Made by a program: the position numbers and the translations under genes | The notes under the pieces: generated by a model | What the model was told of the DNA's origin: nothing | The model's database searches: none | The model's input: the letters and a program-made list of their open reading frames with translations, nothing else | In this document: positions 31,778 to 57,285 of the stretch, one piece after another | Numbering within the stretch: position 1 is the first letter of the stretch | Layout: each line of letters begins with the position of its first letter | Origin: an uncultured Parvularculaceae bacterium | GTDB lineage: Bacteria; Pseudomonadota; Alphaproteobacteria; Caulobacterales; Parvularculaceae | DNA: 64,000 nucleotides | Assembly: GCA_947259375.1 (NCBI GenBank) | Contig: CAMYLZ010000012.1 | Coordinates: forward strand, 83,552 to 147,551 | Direction: 5' to 3'

Positions 31778-31819
31778 GTCCCCGTAGCTCAGCAGGATAG
31801 AGCATCAGATTCCTAATCT
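31778..31819 (+). pseudogene. 5' half of the chromosomal tRNA-Arg(CCT), cut by the island
   Basis: Starts GTCCCCG, TA, D-arm GCTC...GAGC, then the 5' anticodon stem TCAGA and loop TTCCTAA, and stops matching a tRNA at 31819. The remaining 3' half is at 57239-57285. Joining the two at the shared 12-bp core gives a perfect 77-nt tRNA with CCT anticodon and fully paired acceptor (GTCCCCG/CGGGGAC). The half alone cannot make a working tRNA. Confidence 0.93.
31808..31819 (+). repeat. attL core of the island (12-bp direct repeat)
   Basis: GATTCCTAATCT, identical to 57239-57250 and forming the anticodon loop and adjoining stem of tRNA-Arg. Bases on both sides differ between the two copies, so the identity block is exactly 12 bp. 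Confidence 0.9.
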
Positions 31820-31917
31820 CCCGACCTATATATAATATTCTCCATAAGAACGTAAAATCATACATAATATCAATATGTTGTAAATTTACTTGCCTCGTTT
31901 TGATCGCCATTTTATCA

Positions 31918-31948
31918 TTACACATAGCTTACACATTTTCGCACTTTT
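31918..31948 (+). repeat. Putative integrase arm-binding repeats, left end
   Basis: TTACACAT, TTACACATTTT and GCACTTTT in tandem just before the integrase gene. The right end carries TTACACACTTT and TCACATTTT in the same order twice. Matching short repeats on both sides of the crossover core are what tyrosine integrases use as arm sites. The AT-rich stretch from 31820 onward probably also holds the integrase promoter. Confidence 0.55.
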
Positions 31949-31957
31949 GAGACGATC

Positions 31958-33499
31958 ATGGCAGACCACACGATTATGGGCGGAAAAGTCCACGTTTATA
32001 AACGCGGACGAAGCCGATACTGGCAGTGCTCCACCTACATCGCCGGTAAGAACCGGCGTGTCAGCACCAAGCAGGAGAGCTTGGCGCAGGCAAAGGACTT
32101 TGCCGAAGATTGGTATCTGGACCTTCGCGGAAAGAACAATCGCGGCGAGCTGAAATCTGAAAAGACATTCAAGCAAGCCGCCGAGCAGTTTCTACGCGAG
32201 TACGAGGTCATCACCGAAGGTCAACGCCACCCCGGTTATGTCGAAGGACATGAGCGTCGGCTCAAGCTCCACCTTGTCCCCTTCTTCGGAGACAAGGGAC
32301 TATCCGAAATCACTCCTGGCCTTGTGCAGGAGTACCGCATCTCCAGACTGAATCCAGACAACAAGCCAATCGAAAAGCCGTTCAAACAGGCGGTTCGCCA
32401 GTTTGAAAAGGAATACGGCTTTCGCAGCAATGACCGTACGGAACGCGAAGCCGAGTTCCGCCTTGAAACCGTGAAAAAGCACATCGTTCCCTATTTCAGC
32501 GACGCAGTTGCATCCACCGTCACATCCAAGGCTATCGAGAAATACCGCGACTACCGGATTTCGGAGATAGATCAGGAACCCGCCATCGCCGCAAAGATGG
32601 TGGACCGGGAACTAGGCGCGCTTGGCGAAATGCTACGCTGGATGAAACAGCGCAGCAGGCCGCCGTCCAAGAGCACGATGCACCACGAGATCGTGACGCT
32701 TCGGCAGGTCATAAAGACCGCCATCCGCCACGGCTGGCTCGCACACCTGCCCGACTTCTCGCCCCCTTACCGGAAGGCCGAGAAGATTGCCCACCGCGCG
32801 TGGTTCTCGCAGGAAGAATACCGGAAGCTCTACGAGGCGTCCCGCGCCCGCACCCAACAATTCAAGGGCACGGCAAGGGCGTGGCCCAACGAGCAGTTGC
32901 ACGACTACATCCTGTTCATGGCGAATACCGGCATGCGTCCGGATGAAGCCAACACGCTTGAGTTTCGCGACGTGGAGATCGTCGAGGACGAAGGAACCGG
33001 CGAAACGATCCTACTGATTTCAGTTCGGGGAAAGCGCGGTGTCGGCTATTGCAAGAGCATGGCGAATGCCGTGCGGCCGTTTGAGCGGCTGCGCGACAGG
33101 CTTCGGCCTGCATCGGATGACCAGACCGACGATGACGACACAGAAACCAGTTCGGAAGAACGGGGCTGGCGGAAACCTAAGCCGACCGACCTTGTTTTCC
33201 CCGCCAATCACAAGAAGCAATTCAACGCCATTCTCGAAGAGAATGACCTCAAATTCGACCGCGAAGGCAGCAGGCGGACGGCCTACAGCCTGCGTCATAC
33301 CTATATCTGTTTCCGGCTCCTCGAAGGTGCCGACATCTACCAGATCGCCAAGAACTGCCGCACCAGCGTCGAGATGATCGAGAAATACTATGCCTCGCAC
33401 ATCGCCACGACGCTCGATGCGTCAGCGATCAATGTGCGAAGGCCGAAGCGCAAAAATCAAAGCAAGGAAGACGACTCCGGCAAAAGGCCGGAGGCTTAA
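31958..33499 (+). CDS. Tyrosine site-specific integrase with duplicated core-binding domain
   Basis: 513 residues. The catalytic domain shows Arg in NTGMRPDEA (about residue 328), the RH box in SLRHTYICF (about 446), and the nucleophile Tyr in EKYYASH (about 477). The N-terminal part holds two similar core-binding segments: FKQAAEQFLREYE...HLVPFFGDKGLSEIT (about 70-120) and FKQAVRQFEKEYG...HIVPYFSDAVASTVT (about 143-190), which look like a tandem duplication. It catalyses insertion at the tRNA-Arg anticodon core. Oriented inward from attL. An internal in-frame ATG at 31976 is an alternative start. Confidence 0.93.
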   Translation: MADHTIMGGKVHVYKRGRSRYWQCSTYIAGKNRRVSTKQESLAQAKDFAEDWYLDLRGKNNRGELKSEKTFKQAAEQFLREYEVITEGQRHPGYVEGHERRLKLHLVPFFGDKGLSEITPGLVQEYRISRLNPDNKPIEKPFKQAVRQFEKEYGFRSNDRTEREAEFRLETVKKHIVPYFSDAVASTVTSKAIEKYRDYRISEIDQEPAIAAKMVDRELGALGEMLRWMKQRSRPPSKSTMHHEIVTLRQVIKTAIRHGWLAHLPDFSPPYRKAEKIAHRAWFSQEEYRKLYEASRARTQQFKGTARAWPNEQLHDYILFMANTGMRPDEANTLEFRDVEIVEDEGTGETILLISVRGKRGVGYCKSMANAVRPFERLRDRLRPASDDQTDDDDTETSSEERGWRKPKPTDLVFPANHKKQFNAILEENDLKFDREGSRRTAYSLRHTYICFRLLEGADIYQIAKNCRTSVEMIEKYYASHIATTLDASAINVRRPKRKNQSKEDDSGKRPEA

Positions 33500-33542
33500 T
33501 CCCCTTCTCTCACCCGTCAGGCTCGGAAGGCACCTTTAAGAG

Positions 33543-33582
33543 CCGTCAGGGCCAGCCCGTGGGGCGTTAGGGGCCTGGACGG
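33543..33582 (+). repeat. Structured stem-loop motif, copy 1
   Basis: Nested hairpin: outer stem CAGG(G)CC with GGCCTG, extended by CCGTC/GACGG; an inner stem GCCC-GTG-GGGC; then a conserved GTTAGG. The inner part is identical in copy 2 (33668-33699) while the outer stem differs and still pairs, as expected for a conserved RNA fold. The 540-base region 33500-34039 between integrase and HTH gene holds only these two motifs and no supported gene. Confidence 0.55.
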
Positions 33583-33667
33583 GCAAAGGCCACCACCTAT
33601 CTATCGTCCGGCAGCGGACACTTGCGGTGTGCCTTATTTCAGGCTGAGAGGGTAGCCGTTCAGCCGT

Positions 33668-33699
33668 CCGAGCCAGCCCGTGGGGCGTTAGGGGCTCGG
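33668..33699 (+). repeat. Structured stem-loop motif, copy 2
   Basis: Outer stem CCGAGCC/GGCTCGG (seven perfect pairs), then the same inner GCCC-GTG-GGGC hairpin and GTTAGG as copy 1. The two copies share an exact 24-base central block. Function unknown; could be an RNA element or a recombination-related DNA structure. Confidence 0.55.
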
Positions 33700-34039: not shown

Positions 34040-34228
34040 ATGCAGACCGACATTATGACCATCCAAGAGGTGGCGGAGTATCTCAAGCTCAACCAGAAGA
34101 CCGCCTATAGGTTGGCGTCTGAAGGCGAGATACCCGGTTTTAAAGTTGGCGGTTCGTGGCGGTTCAAACGACAGGACATCGAACGCTGGATTGCCCAGAG
34201 GACAAAGACGCAGAAAGATAAAAGCTAA
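34040..34228 (+). CDS. AlpA/excisionase-like helix-turn-helix protein
   Basis: 62 residues forming one MerR-like/excisionase winged HTH: TIQEVAEYLKLNQKTAYRLASEGEIP, then the strand FKVGGSWRFKRQDIERWI. Proteins of this type act as excisionases or as regulators at type I restriction loci. Its stop overlaps the hsdM start by one base, so it is the first gene of the restriction operon. It may control hsd expression or direct excision of the island; the sequence does not decide. Confidence 0.8.
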   Translation: MQTDIMTIQEVAEYLKLNQKTAYRLASEGEIPGFKVGGSWRFKRQDIERWIAQRTKTQKDKS

Positions 34229-36663
34229 TGGCGATCAAGAAGACCGAACTCTATTCCTCTCTCTGGGCAAGCTGCGACGAGCTGCGCGGCGGAATGGATG
34301 CCTCTCAGTACAAGGATTACGTCCTTACGCTGCTCTTCGTAAAATACGTTTCTGACAAATACGCTGGGGACCCGAATGGCCTAATCGTCGTTCCTGAAGG
34401 CGGCTCATTCGATGAAATGGCAAAGCTCGGCGGCGACACAAACATCGGCGAAAAAATCAACATCATCATCAAGCGCCTTGCTGAAGAGAACGACCTTCGC
34501 GGCGTCATCGACATCGCCGACTTCAATGACGAGGACAAGCTCGGCAAAGGCAAGGCGATGGTGGATCGCCTATCCAAGCTGATCAAAATTTTCGACAGCC
34601 TCGATCTAAGCGCCAACCGGGCCGAAGGCGATGATCTGCTTGGCGACGCCTACGAGTATCTTATGCGCCACTTCGCGACGGAGTCGGGCAAATCCAAGGG
34701 GCAGTTCTACACGCCCGCAGAGGTTTCCCGCATTCTCGCTAAGGTCATCGGCATTTCGAAAGAGACCAGCCAGGACGAGACAGTTTACGACCCGACCTGT
34801 GGCTCGGGCTCGCTCTTATTGAAAGTGGCGGATGAATCCCCGCGCGGCATGTCGCTCTTTGGCCAGGAGATGGATAACGCCACCGCAGCCTTGGCCAAGA
34901 TGAACATGATCCTGCATAGCAGCCCGACCGCGCAAATCTGGCAGGACAACACGCTATCCGAACCCTATTGGAAAAATGCCGATGGCAGCCTGAAGGCCTT
35001 TGACTATGCCGTCGCCAATCCGCCGTTCTCCTTCAAAGCCTGGAGTTCTGGCGTCTCGGTCGAGGACGATCCCTATAAGCGATTTGAATACGGCACACCA
35101 CCAGAGAAAAATGGCGATTACGCTTTTCTCCTTCACATCATCAAATCACTAAAATCCGATGGTAAGGGCGCGGTGATCTTGCCCCATGGTGTTCTTTTCC
35201 GTGGAAACGCGGAGGCCACGATCCGGCGCAATCTGGTCAAGCAGGGATTCATCAAAGGCATCATCGGCCTGCCGCCGAACCTGTTTTATGGTACCGGAAT
35301 CCCCGCCTGCATCATCGTGATCGACAAGGCGGCGGCAAAGCCGAAGAACGACATTTTCATGATCGACGCTAGCAAGGGCTTTATTAAGGACGGCAACAAA
35401 AACCGTCTACGCAGTCAGGATATTCACAAGATCGTCGATGTCTTCAACAAGCGGTTGGTGATTGATCGTTACTCCCGCCTAGTGCCTTTCGAAAAAATTG
35501 AAGAGAACGACTTCAACCTGAATATCCCACGATACGTGGATTCATCCGAACCCGAGGATATCCACGATCTGACGGCGCATATGAATGGCGGAATCCCGAA
35601 CACCGATATCGACGCGTTAAAGCCATATTGGGATGTATTTCCCTCGCTTCGTGAAACGCTGTTTGGGCCGAACGGGCGCGACAATTACAGCGACGCAAAA
35701 ATACCGGCAGACGAGGTCAGGCAAACCGTGCTCGCGCACGAAGAGTTTGAGGCTTTCCGCAAGAATGCGCTCACCCCTTTCGCAGAGTGGAAAGCGCACT
35801 ACCTAGATCGGCTCCGCGCCATCGAGATTGGGGATGGCCCGAAAGACCTGATCTTCGATCTGTCAGAGAACCTACTTTCCCGCTATGCCGAGCCGCCTCT
35901 AATTGACCGGTATGACGTGTACCAGCTTCTCATGAACTATTGGTCGGAGACCATGCAGGATGATGTCTACATCCTCGCGCAAGATGGCTGGGCAGCAGGC
36001 AATGTCATCCGCGAGCTGATTCCGGCCAAGGATAAAAACGGCAAGAATGTTTACAAGGAGGAGCACGACTTTGAGTTCAAGAAAGTCCGCTATAAGAGCG
36101 ATCTTGTCCCGCCACAGCTCGTCATCAACTGCTTCTTCGCCGAAGATCAGCAAAATCTAGACAGCCTTCAGGCCGCCCACGACGAGGCCAGCCAAACGCT
36201 GGAGCAGTTTGTTGAGGACAATAGCGGCGAAGAAGGCCTGATCGAAGACGCCAAGAACGATAAAGGTAAAGTCAGCCAGAAATCTGTGAAGGAATGTCTC
36301 GATAAGGCCGTCGATCAAGATGAGATTGCCGCGCTCAAAAAATGCATGACGCTGATAAAGGCGGAAGCCGCTGCAAAGAAGGCTGTAAAGGACGCAAAGA
36401 ATAAGCTCGACGCCAAAGTCTTCGCGAAGATCAAGGTACTGAGCGAGGAGAACATTCGCACGATTGTGATCGAGGACAAATGGCTAGCGACCTTGCAGAG
36501 CGACATCGACAGCGAGATTGAGCGCGTCACCAACAAACTGGTCAATCGCTTGAGGACGCTGGAAGAGCGCTACGCCACTCCCATGCCAAAATTGTCAGAG
36601 CGTGTCGGAGAACTAACCAGCAAAGTGGATGGCCACCTCAAAGCAATGGGGGTGTCATGGTAA
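34228..36663 (+). CDS. hsdM: Type I restriction-modification DNA methyltransferase subunit
   Basis: 811 residues. An N-terminal helical HsdM domain (about 1-150) is followed by an N6-adenine methylase core: motif I DPTCGSGSLLL (about residue 190) for AdoMet and motif IV NPPF (about 268) for the target base, preceded by GQFYTPAEV. A long C-terminal helical region (about 510-811) makes it larger than the classical 520-residue HsdM. With HsdS it methylates host sites; with HsdR it forms the restriction complex. Confidence 0.95.
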   Translation: MAIKKTELYSSLWASCDELRGGMDASQYKDYVLTLLFVKYVSDKYAGDPNGLIVVPEGGSFDEMAKLGGDTNIGEKINIIIKRLAEENDLRGVIDIADFNDEDKLGKGKAMVDRLSKLIKIFDSLDLSANRAEGDDLLGDAYEYLMRHFATESGKSKGQFYTPAEVSRILAKVIGISKETSQDETVYDPTCGSGSLLLKVADESPRGMSLFGQEMDNATAALAKMNMILHSSPTAQIWQDNTLSEPYWKNADGSLKAFDYAVANPPFSFKAWSSGVSVEDDPYKRFEYGTPPEKNGDYAFLLHIIKSLKSDGKGAVILPHGVLFRGNAEATIRRNLVKQGFIKGIIGLPPNLFYGTGIPACIIVIDKAAAKPKNDIFMIDASKGFIKDGNKNRLRSQDIHKIVDVFNKRLVIDRYSRLVPFEKIEENDFNLNIPRYVDSSEPEDIHDLTAHMNGGIPNTDIDALKPYWDVFPSLRETLFGPNGRDNYSDAKIPADEVRQTVLAHEEFEAFRKNALTPFAEWKAHYLDRLRAIEIGDGPKDLIFDLSENLLSRYAEPPLIDRYDVYQLLMNYWSETMQDDVYILAQDGWAAGNVIRELIPAKDKNGKNVYKEEHDFEFKKVRYKSDLVPPQLVINCFFAEDQQNLDSLQAAHDEASQTLEQFVEDNSGEEGLIEDAKNDKGKVSQKSVKECLDKAVDQDEIAALKKCMTLIKAEAAAKKAVKDAKNKLDAKVFAKIKVLSEENIRTIVIEDKWLATLQSDIDSEIERVTNKLVNRLRTLEERYATPMPKLSERVGELTSKVDGHLKAMGVSW

Positions 36664-37868
36664 ATCCAGGTCCCCACGAGATCGACGAAATCAGAGCTCC
36701 GGATGGCTGGGAGCTGCTATACATCGGCGAACACTTTGAGTTCAAGAATGGTTTGAATAAGGCAAAAAAGTATTTTGGTCACGGTACGCCCATCATAAAT
36801 TATATGGACGTCTACAAATACCCAGGGCTTTTCCTATACCAAATCGTCGGTAAGGTCGATGTCAATTCGGAAGAGAAACGTGCGTATTCAGTAAGAAAAG
36901 GCGACGTATTTTTTACCCGCACATCAGAGACTCCTGAGGAGATCGGGATAGCGTCTGTCCTTATCGATGATGTCGAGGATGGTGTGTTTAGTGGGTTTGT
37001 GCTCAGAGCGCGCCCAAATACCAATGCTTTCAACAACGATTTTAAAAAATACTGCTTCTCATCCAGTGCGGTTCGCAAACAGATACAATCAACTAGCTCT
37101 TACACAACGCGAGCGTTGACGAATGGTCGTTTGCTTTCTCAAGTAGTCGTCCCTGCGCCTATCGATATCGAAGAACAAAAGGCCATCGCGGAGGTTTTGT
37201 CGGACGTCGATGCTCTGATAGAACATCTCGAAGCGCTGATCGCGAAAAAGGGCGATATCAAAACCGCCACGATGCAGCAGCTTTTCGCAATAGATGATAG
37301 CTCTAACATCACTGAATTCGGGAAAGTTTGCAGTTTGCGAAAAACACGATGTGCGCCAGCCTCAGCTCCAGAGGGTTCAAAAAGCATCGAACTTGAGCAC
37401 ATCCAGGCCGAAACGGGAATTGTATTAGATAAAACTCCAATGCTTGAGCTGGTTTCTCTGAAGTCCTCTTATAAGCAGGGCGATATTCTTTTCGGAAAAT
37501 TGCGATCTTATCTCCGGAAGTTTCACTTAGCCCAAGATTCAGGATACTGCTCGACCGAAATCTGGGTGATCGTGCCCGATAAGGATGTTGTCGAGCCCGA
37601 ATACTTATACAACGTGGTTCAAACGAACCGTTTCATCGAAGCAGCTAGCGAAGCTTACGGAACACACATGCCAAGGGCTGACTGGGGCGTTGTATCGGAA
37701 TTCAAAATGAAGCTTCCTTCTTCTCTAAAAGAACAGAAAAAGGTGGCTAGTGTGCTAATGGACATGGAAAAAGAGATAAATGAATTGCGTAATCAAAGCG
37801 TCAAACTTCAAGGCATAAAGCAAGGTATGATGCAGGAACTCCTTACGGGGAGGACGCGCCTGATATGA
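36657..37868 (+). CDS. hsdS: Type I restriction-modification specificity subunit
   Basis: 403 residues with two target-recognition domains, each followed by a long helix: the first ends PAPIDIEEQKAIAEVLSDVDALIEHLEALI (about 165-195) and the second ends LPSSLKEQKKVASVLMDMEKEINELRNQ (about 358-385), the typical HsdS half-repeat pattern. It sets the recognition sequence, which cannot be deduced here. The gene overlaps hsdM by seven bases and the next gene by four. It looks more AT-rich than its neighbours, as specificity genes often are after exchange. Confidence 0.93.
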   Translation: MVNPGPHEIDEIRAPDGWELLYIGEHFEFKNGLNKAKKYFGHGTPIINYMDVYKYPGLFLYQIVGKVDVNSEEKRAYSVRKGDVFFTRTSETPEEIGIASVLIDDVEDGVFSGFVLRARPNTNAFNNDFKKYCFSSSAVRKQIQSTSSYTTRALTNGRLLSQVVVPAPIDIEEQKAIAEVLSDVDALIEHLEALIAKKGDIKTATMQQLFAIDDSSNITEFGKVCSLRKTRCAPASAPEGSKSIELEHIQAETGIVLDKTPMLELVSLKSSYKQGDILFGKLRSYLRKFHLAQDSGYCSTEIWVIVPDKDVVEPEYLYNVVQTNRFIEAASEAYGTHMPRADWGVVSEFKMKLPSSLKEQKKVASVLMDMEKEINELRNQSVKLQGIKQGMMQELLTGRTRLI

Positions 37869-38800
37869 CGCCGGTGAAAAGCTATTATCGCATTATGTTG
37901 GGGCGCGGAAGCATGCACGCCCAGGAATGCTATGATGGCGAATTCATCGGCACGCATTTTGGCTTCGATTTCGATCTGTCTGGCGAGCTGCCGGACGACT
38001 GGCGTGCCTTTAATGCCAAGTACCGTGAGGTTTATCTCAAGAATCACCCTGATAAATCAAAGGTAGCCGCTGGCCTTGCGTGCGGCGCTGTTTGGTCGAT
38101 CTGCAAGGGGATTAGGAAAGGCGACATCGTGCTTTGCCCTAATGGACAGGGGCAGTATTGGGTTGGTGAAGTCGCCGGTGATTACTATTACGAAGCCGAT
38201 ACCTTCTTCCCCCACCGCCGCAAGGTGGCGTGGCTGCCATTTCTGATCGAACGCTCGGCTATGTCGCAGAGCCTTCAGAATTCGACAGGCTCAATCGGCA
38301 CGGTATCTACCATCACCAAACATGCCGAGGAGATCGAGTCCTTCATCGGAGGGCACACACGCCCTCAATTAATCGCAACCGACGAATTGGTCGAAGACGC
38401 ATCCGAATTTGCTCTCGAAAAACACCTCGAAGATTTCCTCGTCCAAAACTGGTCATCGACCGAACTGGGCAAGACGCACGATGTGTACGAGGTCGATGGC
38501 GAACTCGTGGGCCAGCAATTCCCCAGCGATACCGGTCCAATCGATATCCTCGCCATCAGCAAAGACCAAAAAGAGCTCCTGGTCATTGAGCTGAAAAAGG
38601 GACGCGCCAGCGATGTCGTGCTCGGGCAAGTCCAACGCTATATGGGCTATGTCCAGGATGAGCTGACCGAGAACGGGCAGAAAGTGCGCGGGATTATCAT
38701 TGCTCTGGATGACGATTTGCGTTTGCGCCGTGCTCTGAGCGTGACAAACAATATCGATTTTTACCGCTATCAAGTGAATTTTAAGTTGTTCAGGGGGTAG
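37865..38800 (+). CDS. PD-(D/E)XK nuclease of NucS/DUF91 type with PUA-like N-domain
   Basis: 311 residues. The N-terminal half (about 60-130) contains KGDIVLCPNGQGQYWVGEV and FFPHRRKVAWL, resembling PUA/EVE-like domains that bind modified bases. The C-terminal half (about 180-300) is NucS-like: FALEKHLEDFL, catalytic Asp in TGPIDILAI and the ExK motif VIELKKG, then a helix with QVQRYMGYV. It lies inside the type I operon between hsdS and hsdR with overlapping or one-base junctions. A modified-DNA-dependent nuclease or accessory specificity factor is plausible; the role is inferred. Confidence 0.8.
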   Translation: MTPVKSYYRIMLGRGSMHAQECYDGEFIGTHFGFDFDLSGELPDDWRAFNAKYREVYLKNHPDKSKVAAGLACGAVWSICKGIRKGDIVLCPNGQGQYWVGEVAGDYYYEADTFFPHRRKVAWLPFLIERSAMSQSLQNSTGSIGTVSTITKHAEEIESFIGGHTRPQLIATDELVEDASEFALEKHLEDFLVQNWSSTELGKTHDVYEVDGELVGQQFPSDTGPIDILAISKDQKELLVIELKKGRASDVVLGQVQRYMGYVQDELTENGQKVRGIIIALDDDLRLRRALSVTNNIDFYRYQVNFKLFRG

Positions 38801-38801
38801 C

Positions 38802-41800
38802 ATGGCGAAGATCGGTCAAAAAGAAATCGCCACGCAAAAGCGCATCATTAAGCTTTTTGTTGATGATCTGAAATACACCTATCTCGGCGACTGGAAGGAC
38901 CGCGAAGACAACGGCAACATTGAGGTCGAACATCTCACCACCTGGCTGAAAAAGAGCGGCGTCAGCGAGGCCCTGATTGGCCGCACGCTGCGCGAACTGG
39001 ACCAAGCCGCTGCTCTTGGTGAAGGTAAAAACCTCTACGACGCCAATAAGGCCGTCTACAGCCTATTGCGTTACGGCGTGAAGGTGAAAGAAGGTGCTGG
39101 CGAGCAGAATGTCACTGTCCAACTAATCGACTGGGATCATCCAGATAAGAACGACTTTGCCGTTGCCGAGGAAGTCTCGGTGCGCGGCGAGAACAAGAAA
39201 CGCCCCGACCTTGTTCTTTATGTAAATGGGATCGCGCTCGGCGTCATCGAACTCAAACGCTCCAGCGTCTCCATCGGTGAAGGCATCCGCCAGAATCTCG
39301 ATAACCAGAAAAAAACATTCATCCGAAACTTCTTCACCACCATGCAATTGGTCATGGCGGGTAACGATACTGAGGGGTTGCGCTACGGCACCATCGAAAC
39401 GTCAGAAAAGCACTACTATCAATGGAAAGAACAAATCGAGCATGGGTATGAGCACTTGCTCGACTTCCATCTCTCATGCCTTTGCAGCAAAGACCGCTTT
39501 CTGGAAATAATCCACGACTTCATCGTCTTCGACGCAGGCACAAAAAAGACCGGCCGCCACAATCAATATTTTGGCGTGAAAGCCGCGCAGGAATACGTGG
39601 ATCGCCGTGACGGCGGTATTATTTGGCACACTCAGGGCTCCGGTAAGAGTCTGACAATGGTTTGGCTCGCCAAGTGGATACGCGAACATATCGAAAGCTC
39701 TCGCGTGCTCGTTATTACCGACCGCACCGAGCTTGATGATCAGATTGAAAAAGTCTTTCTGGGAGTTGATGAGCAGATTTACCGAACTGGGAGCGGCAAA
39801 GACCTCATCAGCACCCTCAACAAAAGTCATGAATGGCTGCTGTGTTCACTGGTCCATAAATTTGGACGCCATGATCACAAGAACGATGATGACGATGATG
39901 AAACGGCGGCGGACGAATTTATTGCTGAGTTGCAGGCCAGCTTGCCAAGGGATTTCCACGCCAAAGGTGAAATCTTCGTGTTCGTCGATGAGTGCCACCG
40001 CACGCAATCGGGTAAATTACACGCTGCGATGAAAAGCATATTGCCGAAAGCCACTTTCGTTGGCTTTACAGGGACGCCATTACTCAAAAAAGATAAGCAA
40101 AAAAGCATCGAAATCTTCGGCCCTTATATCCACACCTACAAATTCGACGAAGCGGTAGAGGACGGGGTGGTTCTCGATTTGCGCTATGAGGCTCGGGACA
40201 TTGATCAATTTCTGACCTCAGAGGAGAAGGTCGATAAGTGGTTTGATCTAAAAACGCGCGGCCTGTCCGACATGGCGCGCGTACAACTCAAACAAAAATG
40301 GGGCACCATGCAAAAGGTGCTCTCCAGCCAAGACCGGCTTGAGCAGATCGTCAACGACATCCTGATGGATATGGAGACCAAGCCTCGTCTAATGGATGGG
40401 CGCGGTAATGCCATGTTGGTTTGCTCCAGCATTTATCAGGCGTGCAAAATCTACGACCTGTTCAGCAAGACCGACCTTGCGGGAAAATGCGCAATCATCA
40501 CCAGCTATCAGCCTTCCCCTGCCGATATTAAAGGGGAAGAAAGTGGAGAAGGACTTACAGAGAAGCTGAACCAGTACAGCATCTACCGGCGAATGCTCGC
40601 TGACCATTTTGAGCTGCCTGAAGACGAGGCGATGGGGAAAGTTGAAGAGTTCGAGAAGCGCGTTAAAGAGCGTTTCAAAAAAGAACCCGGTCAGATGCGA
40701 TTGCTTATCGTGGTCGACAAGCTCCTCACCGGTTTCGACGCGCCGTCAGCGACCTACCTTTATATCGATAAGGCCATGAAAGATCATGGTCTCTTCCAGG
40801 CCATATGCCGTGTGAATCGCCTTGATGGAGACGACAAGGAATACGGCTACATTATTGACTACAAAGACCTCTTCAACCGCTTGGAGGGGGCTATTGGGGA
40901 CTACACGAACGGGGCGTTTGACCAGTACGATGCAGCCGATGTTGCCGGGATACTCACGAACCGCGTCGAAAAGGGAAAAGAGCGGCTTGATGAGGCACTA
41001 GAAGCGGTGAAAGCGATCTGCGAATCCGTCATGCAGCCGCGCGGCCAGAAAGAGTTTTACGACTATTTCTGCGGGGACGTCGCCGATAAGAATGCTGCAG
41101 CCGAGAATGAACCAAAGCGAGTGGCACTGTACAAGTCTGTGGCGGCGCTCTTGAGAGCTTACGCAAACCTTGCCAATGAGATGGAGGATGCAGGGTACAC
41201 GCCGGAACAGATCGAAGCGATAAAGGCCGATGTTCAGTACTACGACAAAATGCGCGACGAAATTAAGATGCGGAGTGGCGATTATCTGGACATGAAGCAA
41301 TACGAGCCAGCAATGCGGCATTTGCTCGACACTTACATCCGTGCTGACGAAAGCAACGTAGTCGCGGACTTCGAAGAGCTGGGCCTTATCAACCTGATTG
41401 TTAAACAGGGGATGGGCGCTCTGGATACAATGCCGGACAGTATCAAAGACAATGAAGAAGCAATGGCCGAGACAATCGAAAACAACATTCGCAAGGTCAT
41501 TATTGACGAGCAGTCCGTCAACCCGAAATACTATGAACGTATGTCGGAACTCCTCGATGCGCTTATCGGAGAGCGCAGGCAGCAGGCGCTTGACTACAAG
41601 AAGTATCTCGAAAAAGTCAAAGAGCTTTGCTCTCAGGTAGTAAATCCAGGCGGCATCAATTCTGCCGCTTACCCAACTACTATGAACACTCCCGCCAAGA
41701 AGGCGTTGTACGACAACCTTGGTGAAGATCAGGTGCTTGTAACAAAGATCGATACGGTCGTGCGTCACACAAAAAAGGCTGATTGGATTGGCAGCCGGAT

Positions 41801-48587: not shown

Positions 48588-48617
48588 ATGCGCAATTGGC
48601 TTGGCGGAGGCAAGCGC

Positions 48618-48977: not shown

Positions 48978-50395
48978 TAATCAAGGGCGGCAGCCGGGCA
49001 GCACCAAGGAGCCTCGCCAAGCATCTGATGCGCGGCGACACGAATGAGCGTGTCCTCGTCCTCGGATACGACGGCGTCGCCATCGAAGACCTCAACGCGG
49101 CGCTAGCCGACATGCAGGCGCTGGCATCAGGCACGCGGGGCAAGAAGGGCCTCTACCACGCCAACATCGACCCCCACTCCGACTACAAGATGACGCCGGA
49201 GCAATGGGATCGTTGCGTGGCCGTGCTGGAAAAGGAGCTTGGCCTAGAAGGCCAGCCCCGCGTGGTGGTGCTGCACGAAAAGAAAGGCCGCGAGCATATT
49301 CACGTCGTCTGGGCGCGAACCGACATCGACACGATGACGCTGCGGTCCGATAGCAACAACTATCTTGCCCATGAACGTGCTTCCCACCAGCTCGAAGTGG
49401 AGTTCGGGCACGAGCACGTGCCCGGCGCACATCACAAGCGTGACAAGTCGCAGGACCGGCCCGTCGCCAAGATGAACCGCATGGAGTGGCAGCAGTCCGA
49501 GCGCAGCGGGCTCGACCCCATCGCGCGCAAGGCCGAGATCACCGCCCTCTACGAGCAGTCCGACAACGGCCAGGCATTCAAGAACGCGCTTGAGGAGCAT
49601 GGCTACGTTCTTGCCAATGGCGACAAGCGCGTGTTCGTCTTGGTCGATATCGCTGGCGACGTTCACAGCCTCAATCGGCAGGTCACATCCGCCAAGGCGA
49701 AAGACATCCGCGAGAAGATCGCCGATATCGATCCGGCCAGCCTGCCGGACGTTGCCGAGGCGCAAGAGATACAGGAGCAGCGCCGTGATGCTCGCCGCAG
49801 CGCCTCGGGACGCGAGGAAGCCGAAGAAGGCCGGGGAATGGCTGGAGGCCCGGAGAAATCGCAAGAGGCTTTGCCGATCCTTGCGCCCGACGATCCGGCC
49901 CTTGCAGAGGCCCGTGCCGAGCTAAACCAGAACCACGACCGCCGCCGCGAAATCTTTGCGCAGGATTGGGAGAAGCGGATCGCGCGCGAGATGGATCTGG
50001 TCAATCGCCAGATTCAGGAACAGCGCGATATCGAGCGCAAGGTGGACTGGAAACAGATGGAACCGGGCAAAGGTATTGAACGGTTCGAGCACAAGCTCAA
50101 AGACCGTCTCGACCCGAAGCGGATCAGTGACCGCTATGACGAACGGCAAAGCCGTGAGAAAGAACGCGACGTTCGTGACACTGAGCGCCGCGATGCCCGT
50201 ATGGCTGAGTTGGTGCGTGATCGCGAACAGGCACGAGAGAAGATGGAGAGCAAGTTCGATCAGGAACACTCCCAGCTTGAGGACATGCACCGCCGCGATC
50301 AGGAGCGCGCGCGGCAGCAGGAGCTGGACCGCACCCGCGAACCCCAAACGCCCGAGAGCAAGACCCCCGACCGTGGCGGTGGCTACGACCGATAA
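48974..50395 (+). CDS. Relaxase/mobilisation nuclease, MOBP-like
   Basis: 473 residues. The N-terminal relaxase domain has the histidine triad in GREHIHVVWARTD (about residue 110) with an upstream Asn/Asp-rich segment (HANIDPHSDYKMT). The C-terminal half is a long charged coiled-coil (RDARRSASGREEAEE..., EKERDVRDTERRDARM), typical of plasmid relaxases. It nicks oriT and pilots the strand. GTG start with CGGGAGG upstream, coupled to mobC. A stable two-tier hairpin follows the stop (50396-50427). Confidence 0.92.
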   Translation: MIIKGGSRAAPRSLAKHLMRGDTNERVLVLGYDGVAIEDLNAALADMQALASGTRGKKGLYHANIDPHSDYKMTPEQWDRCVAVLEKELGLEGQPRVVVLHEKKGREHIHVVWARTDIDTMTLRSDSNNYLAHERASHQLEVEFGHEHVPGAHHKRDKSQDRPVAKMNRMEWQQSERSGLDPIARKAEITALYEQSDNGQAFKNALEEHGYVLANGDKRVFVLVDIAGDVHSLNRQVTSAKAKDIREKIADIDPASLPDVAEAQEIQEQRRDARRSASGREEAEEGRGMAGGPEKSQEALPILAPDDPALAEARAELNQNHDRRREIFAQDWEKRIAREMDLVNRQIQEQRDIERKVDWKQMEPGKGIERFEHKLKDRLDPKRISDRYDERQSREKERDVRDTERRDARMAELVRDREQAREKMESKFDQEHSQLEDMHRRDQERARQQELDRTREPQTPESKTPDRGGGYDR

Positions 50396-51012: not shown

Positions 51013-51275
51013 TGGCCCCACAACTTTAGCAAGGACTTCGTCATCACCATCTAAAGCGGCAAGAGCCGATAGAAAGTAAGAAATTACGCCGAATTCAAAG
51101 ATCAATTTCCGTCACAGACTGTATTCATTGAAGTTTAATAGGGTGCTTGGTAGATTGAAATATAGAGCGACGGCTGCCAATCGGGGGCAAGTAGGCTTTG
51201 CAGCGCTCGAATCCACTGGATATAAGATAGTTGCACAGCCTGCACTGGCCTCCTCCTGCGGAGAAGAATGGAGTC

Positions 51276-52253
51276 ATGACAGCCTCAAAGCACCTCATAG
51301 CGCTGCTACAAAGCCATATAGATGGCGACAATGAGCAGTTCTTGGCTGTGGCTATGCAGGTCGCGGCGCACGAGGCGCGTCAAGGCCACGGCAATCTTGC
51401 TAAGCAACTCCGCGATCTCGTCGATGAAGCACGGTCGCTAAAGGCTAGCAGGACCAGCAAGCCAGTCCCTTTCGCACAGCCGAAGGGAGAGCTCGCTGCG
51501 TTGATCTCCGCCACCTATTCCGATACGCGCCTTACCAGCATGGTGCTACCAACAGCACTGGAAGAGCGTCTGAAGCGGATTGTCACGGAGCAGCGCCAGC
51601 ACCACCGCTTGATTAAGCACGGCCTTCACGCGAGACGAAAGATTCTACTCATCGGCCCTCCGGGCTCGGGCAAAACAATGACTGCTGCCGCTCTGGCAGG
51701 CGAACTCACGCTGCCTCTTTTTACGGTCGTGTTTGATTCTCTGATCACGCGGTTCATGGGTGAAACCGCTGCCAAATTGCGACTTGTTTTCGATGCCATG
51801 CTTGAGACGCGTGGCGTTTATTTCTTCGACGAGTTTGATGCAATTGGTTCCCGGCGAGCGGAAAGAAACGATGTCGGAGAAATACGGCGTGTGCTGAATT
51901 CTTTCCTTCAGTTCCTTGAAAATGATGACAGCGACAGTTTGATCATTGCCGCCACAAATCACCCAGAGCTACTCGACCCAGCACTTTTTAGACGCTTCGA
52001 CGACGTTATCCATTACGAATTGCCTGATACTTCTATTGCTGAAGGTATTTTGAAAACGCGCCTTTCCGGTTTCGATACCAAAGGCATGCGTTGGAAGCAG
52101 GTAGTGGAAGCGACCTCAGGATTGAGCCAGGCCGAAATTTCGAGAGCTGCGGACGAAGCAGCGAAACGGACCATTCTTGATGACCGCACCCGAATTGCGC
52201 GTGACGACCTATTGGGGGCGATAGCGGAGCGCAAAGCGTCCACTGAACGGTAA
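51276..52253 (+). CDS. AAA+ ATPase paired with an S8 protease
   Basis: About 325 residues. An N-terminal helical region (about 1-95) precedes a classic AAA module: Walker A GPPGSGKT (about residue 126), Walker B VYFFDEFDAIG (about 184), sensor 1 in IIAATNHPELLD, and arginine fingers in LFRRFDD. The C-terminal small domain includes SGLSQAEISRAADEAAK. Similar to FtsH/Vps4-type unfoldases but soluble. The ATG at 51276 has a GGAG-containing leader; the frame extends 15 codons further up. The subtilisin-like protease gene starts 15 bases after its stop, so the two likely form one system. The 263-base gap before it is AT-rich and probably carries their promoter. Confidence 0.88.
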   Translation: MTASKHLIALLQSHIDGDNEQFLAVAMQVAAHEARQGHGNLAKQLRDLVDEARSLKASRTSKPVPFAQPKGELAALISATYSDTRLTSMVLPTALEERLKRIVTEQRQHHRLIKHGLHARRKILLIGPPGSGKTMTAAALAGELTLPLFTVVFDSLITRFMGETAAKLRLVFDAMLETRGVYFFDEFDAIGSRRAERNDVGEIRRVLNSFLQFLENDDSDSLIIAATNHPELLDPALFRRFDDVIHYELPDTSIAEGILKTRLSGFDTKGMRWKQVVEATSGLSQAEISRAADEAAKRTILDDRTRIARDDLLGAIAERKASTER

Positions 52254-52268
52254 TCGGGGGCGCTACTT

Positions 52269-54812
52269 ATGGCAGAAGAAGATCAGCGACAACTTCCACA
52301 TATTTATCTACCCGCGCACGGCGAGAGAGAAGATTTTACGTCGCCCCAGGGTGGCGGGGGTAGCGGAACGATCCCTCAGCGGAGCCGTGAGCAGCACGCC
52401 CGGCGGCTCGATCAAATGCTTACAGCAGCTGTTGAAGCAGCTCAGGAGCGGATCGCCGATCGTGACCCTGACATCAGTGGTGGTACGCCGGGCTTCTACC
52501 TTGAATTTGAGCTCCCGCAGTCACAACAGTCTATGCTGGACAAGCTGGAAAACAAACAAGGAAGAGAGCACATCGAGTTGGTGGCCGCACGTCCGTCCGG
52601 CGATGATCCAAATCTCATCAAAGCCACAGTGTTTGTCCCTGAATCAAAGCGTGACCACTTTCTTCGCAAAGTTCGAGCCTATGGAGAAGAGGACAATGTC
52701 CGATACCAGAAGGACGACGAGGGCAACTTCATCCACGATGAAGTTGGAAATCGCGTAGAGAAATCCCGTCGTCCTAAGAATGAAGACTTGGTCGCTTCAT
52801 TGGAAACGGCAAGGATTGCGGAGGCGGAGTCACTTTATACGGATGATCTACGGCTATTCCCAGAGGCGGGGCAGGAAGTCTGGTGGGAAGTATGGCTAAG
52901 ACATGACGGCCGCCCCATTCTGGAACACGCTGTGGGTCAACTCGAACTAGCAACCAAAGAGCATTCTGTGACCTTCCCCGAACGGGAGGTGGTCCTAGTT
53001 CGCGCTGCCCCGGAATCAATTGGTCTGATCATTTCCAATACCGATGCGATAGCCGAGCTTCGAATGGCGCGGGATACTCCGTCCTTCTTTATGGAGATGG
53101 ACGGAGCAGAACAGATTGAGTGGTCACAAGAGCTTGCTGAACGAATTGTTGCGCCGGCGGGCGATGCTCCTGCCGTGTGCCTGCTCGATAGTGGGACCAC
53201 GCGTCGTCATCCTCTCATTACTCCCGCTCTTGCAGATGAAGATCAACAGGCTTGGGATGCTAACTGGAACGTTGAAGATGTTGGTGCTCAGTGGCTTGGG
53301 CACGGCACTCAGATGAGCGGCGTAGCGCTATATGGCGACTTGACGGACGCGCTCGTGGCGAATGGACCAGTTGAACTCCGTCACAGGCTCGAATCCGTAA
53401 AAATTCTCCCTGATCATGGTGCCAATGACCCCGATTTATACGGCTATATAACGGCCACTGCTGTGGGACGTACAGAAGTCCAGGCGCCCGAACGACCCCG
53501 CGCCTATTGTCTCGCCGTCACTAGCGAAGGAGATCATTGGCGTGGCCGACCGTCATCCTGGTCCGCAAAGGTGGATGACCTCGCCTATGGCGACGGAGAA
53601 GATCAGCGACTCATCACGATCTCCGCTGGCAATATTCGAACCTACTATCCAGCAGGAGAATACCTAGATCAGAATGACACTGCGGCTATCGAGAATCCTG
53701 CGCAGGCTTGGAATGCGCTCACGGTAGGGGCCGCCACCGACAAAGTTACGATCACGCATCCTGATTTTCAAGGATGGGAGGTCATGGCAACGGCAGGAGA
53801 CCTCTCTCCTTGCAGTCGCACATCGGTGAACTGGAATCACGATTGGCCAATCAAGCCAGATGTAGTTTTCGAAGGTGGGAACCATGGTATCGACCCCGCA
53901 ACTGGCGCTGGCGATCACGTTGACGATCTGGCGCTGCTAACCACCTTTAACCGTCCTGAAGAGCGCGCTTTCACCGTGACGGGAGATACGAGCGCCGCCA
54001 CTGCGCAAGCTGCGCGTATGGCGGCTCAGATCCTTGCGGATCGACCTGGCCTTTGGCCGGAGTCTGTGCGCGCGCTTATCGTCCATTCAGCCGAATGGAC
54101 GCCCGCGATGCTTGCGCATTTACCTCAAAATCCGAACAAGATCCATCAAAGGCTGATTTTGCGCCGGTATGGATATGGTGTCCCGAGTTTTGAGAAGGCA
54201 GTGCGCAGCCTCACTAGTGACGTGACCATGGTGATTGAGTCCGACCTACAGCCGTTTCTCCTTGAAGGGGCAAAGACCCGCAGCTGCGATATGATGCTGC
54301 ATGACTTGCCTTGGCCTGAGGAGGCGCTGAATGCGCTTGGCGAAACTCTGGTCGAGATGAGAACGACCTTGAGCTATTTTATAGAGCCTAATCCCGGTGA
54401 GCGCGGTTGGACGAAACGCCATAGCTACAGCGGCCACGGATTACGATTTTCGGTTAAACGCCCCGAAGAGAGTGTCGATCGGTTCCGCCGAAGAGTGAAC
54501 AAAGCGGCACGCGATGAGGATGAGCGCGTGGCTGGCGCGGGAAGTGATGACGGATGGGTGCTTGGGCCTCGCCTTCGTGATCGAGGTTCGGTTCATTCTG
54601 ACGTTTGGAGGGGCACAGCGACTGACCTTGCAAATCGCCATGCGATAGGAGTCTATCCCATCGGAGGGTGGTGGCGAGAGAAGCCAAGGCTGGAACGCGC
54701 TGACCGGCGCGTTCGATACTCTTTGGTCGTTAGTCTTCGTGCTAACGTCGAGATCGATCTATACACCGAGATTGCCAATGCAATTGGCGTCGAGATCGAG
54801 ATCGAGACTTAG
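52269..54812 (+). CDS. S8 subtilisin-like serine protease, cytoplasmic
   Basis: 847 residues. No signal peptide. An N-terminal region of about 280 residues without known motifs is followed by the protease with complete triad: Asp in AVCLLDSGT (about 305), His in GHGTQMSG (about 345), Ser in TGDTSAATAQAA (about 574). The C-terminal 270 residues form a beta-rich domain. Lack of a secretion signal and pairing with the AAA+ ATPase suggest an intracellular, ATPase-gated protease, possibly defence or stress triggered. Similar AAA/S8 pairs occur on mobile elements; what activates this one is unknown. Confidence 0.88.
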   Translation: MAEEDQRQLPHIYLPAHGEREDFTSPQGGGGSGTIPQRSREQHARRLDQMLTAAVEAAQERIADRDPDISGGTPGFYLEFELPQSQQSMLDKLENKQGREHIELVAARPSGDDPNLIKATVFVPESKRDHFLRKVRAYGEEDNVRYQKDDEGNFIHDEVGNRVEKSRRPKNEDLVASLETARIAEAESLYTDDLRLFPEAGQEVWWEVWLRHDGRPILEHAVGQLELATKEHSVTFPEREVVLVRAAPESIGLIISNTDAIAELRMARDTPSFFMEMDGAEQIEWSQELAERIVAPAGDAPAVCLLDSGTTRRHPLITPALADEDQQAWDANWNVEDVGAQWLGHGTQMSGVALYGDLTDALVANGPVELRHRLESVKILPDHGANDPDLYGYITATAVGRTEVQAPERPRAYCLAVTSEGDHWRGRPSSWSAKVDDLAYGDGEDQRLITISAGNIRTYYPAGEYLDQNDTAAIENPAQAWNALTVGAATDKVTITHPDFQGWEVMATAGDLSPCSRTSVNWNHDWPIKPDVVFEGGNHGIDPATGAGDHVDDLALLTTFNRPEERAFTVTGDTSAATAQAARMAAQILADRPGLWPESVRALIVHSAEWTPAMLAHLPQNPNKIHQRLILRRYGYGVPSFEKAVRSLTSDVTMVIESDLQPFLLEGAKTRSCDMMLHDLPWPEEALNALGETLVEMRTTLSYFIEPNPGERGWTKRHSYSGHGLRFSVKRPEESVDRFRRRVNKAARDEDERVAGAGSDDGWVLGPRLRDRGSVHSDVWRGTATDLANRHAIGVYPIGGWWREKPRLERADRRVRYSLVVSLRANVEIDLYTEIANAIGVEIEIET

Positions 54813-54888: not shown

Positions 54889-55440
54889 TCACTTCCTATC
54901 CCGCAAAACCGTCAGCGCCTTCACCCGTTCCGCATGACGCAGGCTGACGGCTTTGCCGAATTCCAGCACGACATCTTCATGCCCCTTGTGTTCGGCCCAG
55001 AACGCCGCCGTGCGGTCCTTGTCCGTCAGCGCATTTGTGTCCGCGCCGTGATCCAGAAGCAGCGCAACGGCGTCACCACGTCCGCACCATGCCGCGACGT
55101 GCAGGGGCGTCCATTGCCGGTCAGCTTGAGCGTTTACGTCCGCGCCCTTTTTCAGCAGCTCTTCCATGGTCTTCGTATGGCTGTAGCTTCCGGCGATATG
55201 CAGCGCGGTCCACATGCCTTTGTCCATTGTGCGCGCATTCACCGGCGCACCGGCTTCCAGCAGTAAACGGATTATCTCCGGGGTTTCCTCCAGCGCGGCC
55301 ACATGCAGCGGCATCCAGCCTCTGTCGTCAGGGGCAGACAGCTTCGCCCCGGTCAGGATCAGGGATCGGCACCTTGCAAGGTCGCCCTCGCGTATGGCCT
55401 TCAGCAGCCTTAGCCCGATCAGCTCCGCGCTTTCATTCAC
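54889..55440 (-). CDS. Ankyrin repeat protein
   Basis: 183 residues with about four ankyrin repeats: GWMPLHVAALEETPEIIRLLLEAGAP, MWTALHIAGSYSHTKTMEELLKKGAD, QWTPLHVAAWCGRGDAVALLLDHGAD and a degenerate last one (all given in part). A protein-protein interaction module with no catalytic motif. GTG start at 55440 overlaps the stop of a small upstream frame by eight bases, and AAGG precedes it. Partner unknown. Confidence 0.85.
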   Translation of the reverse strand: MNESAELIGLRLLKAIREGDLARCRSLILTGAKLSAPDDRGWMPLHVAALEETPEIIRLLLEAGAPVNARTMDKGMWTALHIAGSYSHTKTMEELLKKGADVNAQADRQWTPLHVAAWCGRGDAVALLLDHGADTNALTDKDRTAAFWAEHKGHEDVVLEFGKAVSLRHAERVKALTVLRDRK

Positions 55441-55925: not shown

Positions 55926-55946
55926 CCACAAGAAGGAGGAACTCCC

Positions 55947-56309: not shown

Positions 56310-56340
56310 CGATGGCCGCTCTTCCGGTAGCTGCCAATTG

Positions 56341-56361: not shown

Positions 56362-56582
56362 TTCGGTGTTCTGATCCGGCGAGGTGCCGGGATGAAGGTG
56401 CGCATCTGCGCATCCTTGTATGCGATGATTTTGGCGATCCGTCGCATTGCCGCGACGGCTTCGGCGTGCTCCGGGGTGCAGGGCCGTGTCGAGATAATGG
56501 CCTTGCGTGCCATTTTGAACATTGCGCTCAGTTCCGTGATCGACAGGCCGTGGAGTTGTTCGCAGCTCATCCGGTAGGTCAT
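56349..56582 (-). CDS. Small helical hypothetical protein
   Basis: 77 residues, mostly helical (LSITELSAMFKMARKAII, then AEAVAAMRRIAKIIAYKDAQ) with a basic C-terminus. AAGGAG lies about seven bases before the ATG on the minus strand, supporting translation. Unrecognised; typical of small genes on mobilisable elements. Confidence 0.55.
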   Translation of the reverse strand: MTYRMSCEQLHGLSITELSAMFKMARKAIISTRPCTPEHAEAVAAMRRIAKIIAYKDAQMRTFIPAPRRIRTPKPGL

Positions 56583-56607
56583 TGGTCTTCTCCTTCTCGT
56601 CTCTCCA

Positions 56608-56786
56608 GCCGCGACCGTCGCGGCCTTGATGACGCCCGGAAGAAGCGCTCCGCCCGGAGCCGCATCCGTCAGGACCGGAACGAAAGAGAAGGACTGGCCT
56701 ATGCCGCATGCGCGGTAGCCAGTTGCGGCGCACGCAGGGCGGTGCGCCAGAACGCAGGAAAAAGGCCCGCGCGGGACGCGAGCCTT
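56608..56786. other. Stem-loop cluster between the small gene and the island tRNA
   Basis: The 330-base stretch 56583-56912 has no supported gene. It contains hairpins at 56608-56624 (GCCGCGA-CCG-TCGCGGC), 56704-56715, 56727-56748 (GGCGCAC/GTGCGCC) and 56762-56786 (ten pairs with one wobble or mismatch). The rest, 56787-56912, is AT-richer and must hold the tRNA promoter. Confidence 0.5.
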
Positions 56787-56912
56787 GAGAGACGTGGAGA
56801 AGATTGATGATGAACGGAAGCTGATGGACAGCCATCTCAGGTGTCGGTCAGGGAAATATCGACCAGTTTAAACTTCCACTTTTTGATGCAGACAGGTATC
56901 TATATTCGATGA

Positions 56913-56989
56913 CTCCCCGTAGCTCAGCAGGATAGAGCGACGGTTTCCTAAACCGTAGGTCAGAGGTTCGAGTCCTCTCGGGGAGGCCA
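56913..56989 (+). tRNA. Intact tRNA-Arg (CCT) carried by the island
   Basis: 77-nt cloverleaf with encoded CCA. Acceptor CTCCCCG/CGGGGAG, D-arm GCTC/GAGC, anticodon stem ACGGT/ACCGT around TTCCTAA (anticodon CCT), T-arm AGAGG/CCTCT. Same anticodon as the chromosomal tRNA the island has split, so it very likely supplies the lost function. Its anticodon stem differs from the att core (GGT-loop-ACC against AGA-loop-TCT), which would spare it from the island's own integrase. Confidence 0.95.
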
Positions 56990-57137
56990 CCCCCTTCCCG
57001 AATCGCCGAAATTTCCACACTTTCTTACACACTTTCACATTTTTTTATTTTTTGTTGTGTATTATCAATGCGTTGAATATGGGGCCTGTTGATTCCTAAT
57101 CCTGAGGCCACTGGTTCGAATCCAGTCGGGGAGGCCA
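56990..57137 (+). repeat. Right-end repeat unit A (arm sites plus tRNA 3' half)
   Basis: AT-rich stretch with CACACTTT, TTACACACTTT and TCACATTTT (57016-57043), then GGGGCCTGTT, the att core and a tRNA-Arg 3' half. Unit B (57138-57285) repeats the same order with clear sequence similarity. The two tandem units of about 148 bp look like two successive attR ends. Confidence 0.75.
57091..57137 (+). pseudogene. Relic tRNA-Arg(CCT) 3' half inside the island
   Basis: GATTCCTAATC, then CTGAGG, T-arm ACTGG/CCAGT and acceptor strand CGGGGAG with GCCA end. It lacks its 5' half, which should begin CTCCCCG. It is neither the host tRNA half (acceptor CGGGGAC) nor part of the intact tRNA at 56913. Best read as what remains of an earlier element's own tRNA after a later insertion. 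Confidence 0.75.
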
Positions 57138-57238
57138 TCCTCTCCGAAAATCGCCAAAATTTTCACACTTCCTTACACACTTTCACATTTTTGAAATTTT
57201 TCTTGTGTAATATCAGCATGATAAATAAGGGGCCTGTT

Positions 57239-57250
57239 GATTCCTAATCT
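57239..57250 (+). repeat. attR core of the island (12-bp direct repeat)
   Basis: GATTCCTAATCT, identical to the attL core at 31808-31819. Together they predict a circular form whose attP joins GGGGCCTGTT, the core, and CCCGACC. Confidence 0.9.
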
Positions 57251-57285
57251 GAGGGCCACAGGTTCGAATCCTGTCGGGGACGCCA
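57239..57285 (+). pseudogene. 3' half of the chromosomal tRNA-Arg(CCT)
   Basis: Anticodon loop and 3' stem (TTCCTAA, TCTGA), variable GGGCC, T-arm ACAGG/CCTGT, acceptor CGGGGAC, discriminator G and CCA. It completes the 5' half at 31778-31819. Without its promoter and 5' half it is not expressed as a tRNA. Confidence 0.92.

Follow-up and report, generated by a model that had tools for sequence, protein, structure and literature searches.

The 64,000-nt stretch of contig CAMYLZ010000012.1 analyzed here (the window, to whose full length all positions refer) comes from an uncultured Parvularculaceae bacterium (GenBank assembly GCA_947259375.1) and contains an island of about 25.4 kb lodged between the two halves of a tRNA-Arg(CCT) gene. 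We consider it highly probable that this element splits the host gene (T0) at a 12-bp core without restoring it, and that it carries a tRNA-Arg(CCT) of its own (T2) as a likely replacement. The 5′ half of T0 lies at 31778-31819 and its 3′ half at 57239-57285, both on the plus strand. The 12-bp repeat GATTCCTAATCT, which corresponds to the anticodon loop of tRNA-Arg(CCT), ends the former (31808-31819) and begins the latter (57239-57250), thereby placing the attachment (att) core at both outer ends of the island. The first-pass annotation had located halves and core at these positions and had regarded the host gene as destroyed. Both claims were confirmed: the flanks joined by script gave a single normal, fully paired tRNA-Arg(CCT) in ARAGORN, and the same program found no tRNA at either the left (attL) or the right (attR) junction, indicating that no functional tRNA is rebuilt at either end. 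With up to 3 mismatches allowed, the 24-nt 5′ sequence of the tRNA matches the window only twice, and none of 100 shuffled sequences contained two. The core 11-mer taken by itself is weaker evidence, with three matches at up to 1 mismatch (0.90 expected), all of them exact. A third core, overlooked by the first-pass annotation, stands at 57091 and opens a second orphan 3′ half (57091-57137). The right end is therefore built of two head-to-tail units of 148 nt, each made of a tRNA 3′ half and an arm and 80% alike.

ARAGORN recognized the intact T2 at 56913-56989 (plus strand), 250 bases before the right core, which is where the first-pass annotation had seen a complete tRNA-Arg(CCT). T2 has GTTTCCTAAAC where the core GATTCCTAATC would stand, and the A-T pair that closes the loop is turned to T-A. 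The assembly (3.20 Mb in 32 contigs, 99.11% complete) yielded 41 tRNA matches, and ARAGORN, run on all of them (30 + 11 loci), assigned the Arg anticodons CCG, TCT, TCG, ACG and a single CCT. The island-borne T2 is the sole complete tRNA-Arg(CCT) found in the assembly. A pattern search of the genome for the 3′ part of the CCT gene returned three places, namely T2 and both orphan halves. Two observations had been named in advance as able to overturn this picture, a second tRNA-Arg(CCT) in the genome and a relative with separated halves and nothing between them; no second CCT gene emerged among the 41 matches or by pattern, and no such relative appeared among those seen.

From these features we infer that the integrase acts at the 12-bp core. 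Integration would break the host tRNA-Arg(CCT), the carried tRNA would fill in, and excision between the outer cores would regenerate the host gene, such that the island could leave cleanly and its tRNA could not be freely deleted or decay. Loss of the island by any route other than clean excision would thus likely cost the cell its tRNA-Arg(CCT). The first-pass annotation had compared this arrangement to an addiction system. The comparison holds insofar as T2 is the only complete CCT gene found and its deletion or decay would be punished; it is too strong in that precise excision would rebuild the host tRNA, so that only deletion or decay would be punished and clean loss would cost nothing. 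The hold of the carried tRNA would be weaker than that of toxin-antitoxin addiction.

The site in congeners and probable stacking of islands in relatives

The genus sample comprised 28 genomes, labelled G000 onward and including that of the window. The joined tRNA matched in 27 of them, in some only through other tRNA-Arg genes. The alpha-2-macroglobulin gene (assigned by Pfam) that lies left of the island was seen beside the site in 22 genomes, 16 of which carry an intact tRNA-Arg(CCT) there and thereby supply the empty-site comparison that the first-pass annotation had called for. The other six have a split host gene (the window's genome, G003, G010, G011, G015 and G017), and six genomes were left unplaced (G004, G008, G009, G018, G022 and G027). 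Among the 16 intact sites, that of G013 has about 1.3 kb between the tRNA and the alpha-2-macroglobulin gene. G023 retains, about 85 bp downstream of its intact tRNA-Arg(CCT), 25 nt from the 3′ end of another tRNA (L080:4041-4065), possibly an older scar at the same site. The DUF4331 gene to the right of the island was found in none of 29 other stretches (25 at tRNA-Arg(CCT), with 1.5-kb flanks, some cut by contig ends), suggesting that the downstream side is variable.

In G010, G011, G015 and G017, a dead host 5′ half is followed 166-190 bp on (start to start) by an intact substitute whose anticodon stem reads CGAAA in G015 and G017 and CTTGA in G010 and G011. The most compact case is a 5.1-kb scar within one contig of G017 (L072:3638-8789), in which both host halves and the intact substitute are present with no detected integrase. 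None of the four congeners gave a match to the window's integrase in the fetched stretches or a PF00589 match (E 1e-8) on those short contigs, and we read them as sites that lost the body of the island and kept its substitute tRNA. By eye, the arms of G010 (L073, L074) and G011 (L075) show GAACCG-type repeats unlike those of the window, which hints at another integrase family acting at the same tRNA. The host 5′ half of G003 lies at L078:7186-7231; another contig bears a complete tRNA-Arg(CCT) close to its end (L079:19200-19278), beside element-like genes that include an integrase-like frame with no Pfam match; one guess is an element that rebuilds the tRNA at its far junction by bringing a 5′ part.

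A scan of genome contigs returned 238 relatives of the integrase, and the results given here cover the best 80 of the 238. In four of these 80, the integrase gene begins about 150-160 bp past the end of a tRNA-Arg(CCT) 5′ half: those of Rhodothalassium salexigens (95% integrase identity), Iodidimonas muriae (94%), a Proteobacteria metagenome-assembled genome (MAG; 79%) and a Methylococcaceae MAG (61%). In each of these genomes, one or more orphan 3′ halves stand behind a complete tRNA-Arg(CCT); in the Methylococcaceae MAG, the contig stops within the orphan half. No further complete CCT gene was found in three of the four. The island ends are placed on separate contigs in Rhodothalassium and in the Proteobacteria MAG. 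The Methylococcaceae contig (L093, or G031:C110) starts and stops within tRNA halves, the assembly having broken at the ends of the island. The window's island has stretches at either end and in its middle in common with the islands of Rhodothalassium and Iodidimonas; its restriction and IetAS parts are without counterpart there.

The middle half of the window (57091-57137, plus strand) offers a possible history of the locus. All 47 of its nucleotides agree with the 3′ half of an intact replacement tRNA of Rhodothalassium, which we call T1 (anticodon stem CAGGA/TCCTG) and which is followed by an arm and then by an orphan half that fits the host 5′ half. In Iodidimonas, T1 is occupied by a related island: the T1 5′ half precedes the integrase, and the T1 3′ half, identical to that of the window, comes after T2 and before another, degraded half. 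The stem of the middle half in the Proteobacteria MAG is that of the intact copy, and the arms are 96.1% alike; the same kind of island apparently landed in its own replacement. Taken together, these arrangements suggest that such islands stack in one another's replacement tRNAs. On this model, an older island would have entered the host gene of the window and brought T1, as the middle half and the relatives indicate, a second island would have entered T1 and brought T2, and the stretch with the T1 5′ half would have been lost afterwards, making T2 the third tRNA to serve at this locus. Alternatively, the island may have arrived as an already composite unit.

Integrases beside broken tRNA-Leu and tRNA-Arg genes

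Disruption of a tRNA gene is common throughout the best 80 relatives, 63 of which follow a broken tRNA half: 37 of tRNA-Leu(TAA), 22 of tRNA-Leu(CAA) and the four of tRNA-Arg(CCT). Thirteen stand after a complete tRNA, three fall elsewhere (L130, which is cut off, L142 and L163), and L164, which the script had classed as restored on account of a more distant tRNA-Gly, was counted as a 38th Leu(TAA) breaker. The far ends of the elements were examined in a few of these loci. L154 is a doubtful member, as its attL keeps the tRNA up to the T loop and the intron-bearing tRNA lies on the other strand. In a quick tree, which left 30 of 75 inner branches open and did not include L161 (translation of fewer than 300 residues), the five integrases at tRNA-Arg(CCT), that of the window included, form one group with a support of 100 in the Shimodaira-Hasegawa-like approximate likelihood ratio test (SH-aLRT), and the presence of a complete tRNA beside the integrase needs three changes.

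The two kinds of Leu breakers differ in the tRNA found near the integrase. An intact tRNA-Leu(CAA) directly follows the integrase in 8 of the 22 Leu(CAA) loci, and the intron pattern occurs in none of the 22; in Edaphobacter (G416), the 5′ half is followed after 22 kb by a complete tRNA-Leu(CAA) and, 5 kb farther on, by the orphan 3′ half. An intron-bearing tRNA-Leu(TAA) was found in 30 of 40 loci (the 38 Leu(TAA) breakers, L130 and L142), 23 of them with the tRNA 1.2-1.4 kb from the start of the integrase. L103, L114, L117, L118, L120, L121, L123, L127 and L136 are among the intron-bearing loci. Such a tRNA was missing from L092, L098, L115, L116, L128, L133, L138, L145, L150 and L158, five of which have less than 1.6 kb of sequence from the integrase start. 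No intron-less tRNA-Leu(TAA) was seen in any of the 37 Leu(TAA) loci within the stretches examined. The intron sits behind GACTT, inside the Leu(TAA) core GACTTAAAA. Rfam reported no group I intron at the gathering score in six stretches; in the one stretch tested with an E-value cut-off, L120:12425-12611 matched RF00028 at 34.2 bits (gathering score 50; E 4.5e-7). The intron call draws on this match, on the intron mode of ARAGORN and on the conservation of the sequence. Across 289 control genomes of the class, the intron-bearing Leu(TAA) pattern occurred in four, in two of them beside an integrase of the group. The intron-bearing tRNA-Leu(TAA) is associated with the integrase group and is not exclusive to it.

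We tentatively propose that this integrase group as a whole lives by tRNA replacement, that its elements protect the replacement against their own integrase through core changes or a group I intron, and that unshielded copies become the next landing sites. Changed core bases beside the anticodon loop would shield T2 of the window and seven of the eight carried Leu(CAA) copies, in which the core 11-mer differs from the attL side by 1-3 bases; it is unchanged in L157. In the Leu(TAA) breakers, a self-splicing group I intron within the att core would leave the DNA no longer a target and the tRNA normal. Any unshielded copy could serve as the landing site of the next island and give rise to stacked halves. 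Shielding of every carried Arg tRNA by the base-pair swap was considered and dropped, since the T1 copies of Rhodothalassium and the Methylococcaceae MAG keep the core and the swap holds only for T2; among the Leu(CAA) carriers, it occurs only in L135, L153 and L156.

Alternative explanations

Several observations weigh against a replacement on which the host depends. A tRNA-Arg(TCT) gene is present in the genome (G000:C25:279196), and AGG may be read through wobble by a UCU anticodon. AGG accounts for 34 of 885 Arg codons in 24 flanking open reading frames (ORFs), or 3.18 per 1000 codons, and occurs in 15 of the 24. A further tRNA-Arg(CCT) exists in the Methylococcaceae MAG. A promoter-like site was not seen ahead of T2; the single one detected lies on the minus strand (57068-57039) and is near chance (1 found, 0.6 expected), and the right end showed no terminator-like site. 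Given the tRNA-Arg(TCT) gene and the rarity of AGG in the flanking ORFs, dependence on T2 may be mild, and the claim of the first-pass annotation that AGG decoding relies on the island keeps its basis, the lack of any other CCT gene found, and loses some of its force to a tRNA that may read the same codon. If tRNA-Arg(TCT) covers AGG, the split would be cheap, T2 would be a mere passenger and nothing would tie the cell to the island. We find this explanation unlikely because all four other genomes in which a related integrase follows a split tRNA-Arg(CCT) have an orphan half behind a complete copy, a substitute stands close to the split site in four congeners, and many of the Leu splitters also carry a matching isoacceptor.

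Stacking likewise faces contrary evidence. The T1 5′ half is absent from the window (search with the 5′ sequence, up to 3 mismatches), so that either a deletion or arrival as a composite must be assumed. No host 5′ half was seen in Iodidimonas, whose contig ends about 460 bp past the T1 half and whose outermost 3′ half is degraded. The arms are mixed: the left arm (31820-31957, plus strand) is nearest to that of Rhodothalassium (78.2%, against 67.8% for Iodidimonas), as is the outer right arm (57138-57238, plus strand; 87.1% to the arm behind the Rhodothalassium T1), and the inner right arm (56990-57090, plus strand) is nearest to the outer arm of Iodidimonas (84.3%, against 82.4% for the inner one). 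An equation of the inner arm with the inner arm of Iodidimonas was therefore dropped, and a clean order of older outside and newer inside is unsupported. As for the congeners read as having lost the island body, the absence of PF00589 matches is weak evidence because the same family missed the window's own integrase at E 0.001, and the assemblies of G011, G015 and G017 are only 84-85% complete. The imperfect pairing of window and Iodidimonas arms, together with the similarity of the two head-to-tail units, would fit a local tandem duplication of the right end with no stacked islands. This is quite improbable given that the middle half is distinct from T2 as well as from the host half and is identical to the Rhodothalassium T1 half, and that the corresponding T1 5′ half stands at the opposite end of the Iodidimonas island. 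An intron-type interruption of the tRNA or an assembly artefact is scarcely credible. The interruption does sit in the anticodon loop, and group I introns are known in tRNA-Arg(CCU); against this, 25.4 kb of sequence with integrase and mobilization genes separates the halves, the core is duplicated at the two ends, split halves recur in four other genomes, and the site is intact in 16 congeners.

Island genes and known tRNA-breaking elements

The island opens with a tyrosine integrase gene (31958-33499, plus strand, as are all genes below unless stated otherwise) coding for a 513-residue protein that matches PHROG_1 integrase (E 8.9e-37) and PF14659. It contains two tandem core-binding-like stretches (about residues 68-136 and 139-207; 23 of 65 positions identical, 35%, E 4e-11). 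Most relatives are about 420 residues long and would lack one of these stretches; L087-L091 are similar in length to the window's protein. Just 3′ of the gene lies a 34-nt direct repeat (33541-33574 and 33662-33695, 94% alike), within a stretch that is also present in Iodidimonas, there about 1.2 kb more distant from the integrase. Next comes a small helix-turn-helix protein (34040-34228; HTH_17, PF12728, E 4.5e-20), which might be an excisionase.

Defence cargo occupies two segments. The first (34228-42621) encodes a type I restriction-modification system assigned by Pfam and PADLOC, with the methyltransferase HsdM (34228-36663), the specificity subunit HsdS (36657-37868) and the restriction subunit HsdR (38802-41906), interrupted by the nuclease-like candidate defence protein PDC-S02 (37865-38800; PADLOC E 1.8e-160, PF01939) and closed by a YgjP-like metallopeptidase (41893-42621; Pfam). 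The second (51231-54812) is an IetAS pair, consisting of an IetA-like AAA ATPase (51231-52253) and an IetS-like subtilase (52269-54812), and is followed by an ankyrin-repeat protein (54889-55440, minus strand), all three recognized by Pfam and PADLOC. Between the segments lie genes for an ArdC-like antirestriction protein (43098-43997; Pfam, PHROGs), a pentapeptide-repeat protein (44574-45335, minus strand; Pfam), a TraG/VirD4-type coupling protein (46201-48036, minus strand; PF02534, E 2e-78), a NikA/MobC-like mobilization protein (48588-48977; Pfam) and a MobA/VirD2-like relaxase (48974-50395; PF03432). Among the 19 island proteins scanned, small frames left out, the coupling protein was the only product of a mating-pore (type IV secretion) gene set seen, and no phage structural family was found among these 19 with Pfam or among 10 with PHROGs, which speaks against a temperate phage. 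A phage origin was also set aside, as seven stretches of viral contigs matched a pattern and none encoded an integrase relative. A plasmid search returned 24 records; coverage of the query reached 80% or more in four of them, the top one of which has 49.7% identity. With its own integrase and relaxase, the island is likely an integrative and mobilizable element with defence cargo.

As in the integrative and mobilizable elements of PMC5704250, integrase, relaxase and accessory mobilization genes occur together; most such elements with a tyrosine integrase are described there as leaving the target gene undisrupted, unlike the window's island. The Islander islands (PMC4383910) share the tyrosine integrase, and 2083 of 3919 have anticodon-centred sites, so that the statement in the first-pass annotation that most tRNA-targeting elements cross over near the 3′ end was not borne out. 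The unusual feature is that the host gene is not restored, rather than the anticodon-centred crossover. In classical Islander islands the target is restored from an attP fragment, and the window's island has no such restoration.

The closest parallel is the tRNA-dependent lysogeny of actinobacteriophages (PMC10865867), which likewise involves a tyrosine integrase, a short core in a host tRNA, no reconstruction and a carried tRNA of the same isotype. All these features were found here, the use of the core being the inferred one. That source reports an experimentally shown need for the phage tRNA in mycobacteriophage Fionnbharth and Cluster L phages, tabulate further phages with cores of 8-17 bp, and speculate on tandem integration into the carried tRNA as a second attB. 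The principle behind the interpretation in the first-pass annotation had already been published for phages. Unlike those phages, the island has no detected phage structural gene and encodes a relaxase, a NikA/MobC-like protein and a coupling protein; the hosts are Alphaproteobacteria and, for relatives of the integrase, Acidobacteria; the targets include tRNA-Arg(CCT) and tRNA-Leu(TAA); and genomes display nested use of the carried tRNA. Prophages of Sinorhizobium meliloti (PMC11476347) break tRNA-Leu(UAG) centrally and carry a functionally similar tRNA gene. They differ from the island in being prophages at another tRNA, and the portion of that source covered here describes a sequential pair in a restored tRNA-Lys and no stacking inside a carried tRNA. 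The part of PMC12429752 considered describes no such feature in another prophage group. Titles and abstract openings of a mostly open-access literature revealed no non-phage elements of this kind and no introns in carried tRNAs. New here are the non-phage elements, their stacking, the integrase group of Leu and Arg breakers and the intron-bearing tRNA-Leu(TAA) replacements.

If these interpretations are correct, the phage rule of breaking a tRNA and bringing a spare would extend to mobilizable defence islands, and one locus could pass through successive tRNA owners. Protection from tRNA-targeting integrases would then provide a testable reason for the presence of group I introns in tRNA anticodon loops. 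Orphan tRNA halves would find an explanation, and a core translation gene could be owned by a mobile element.

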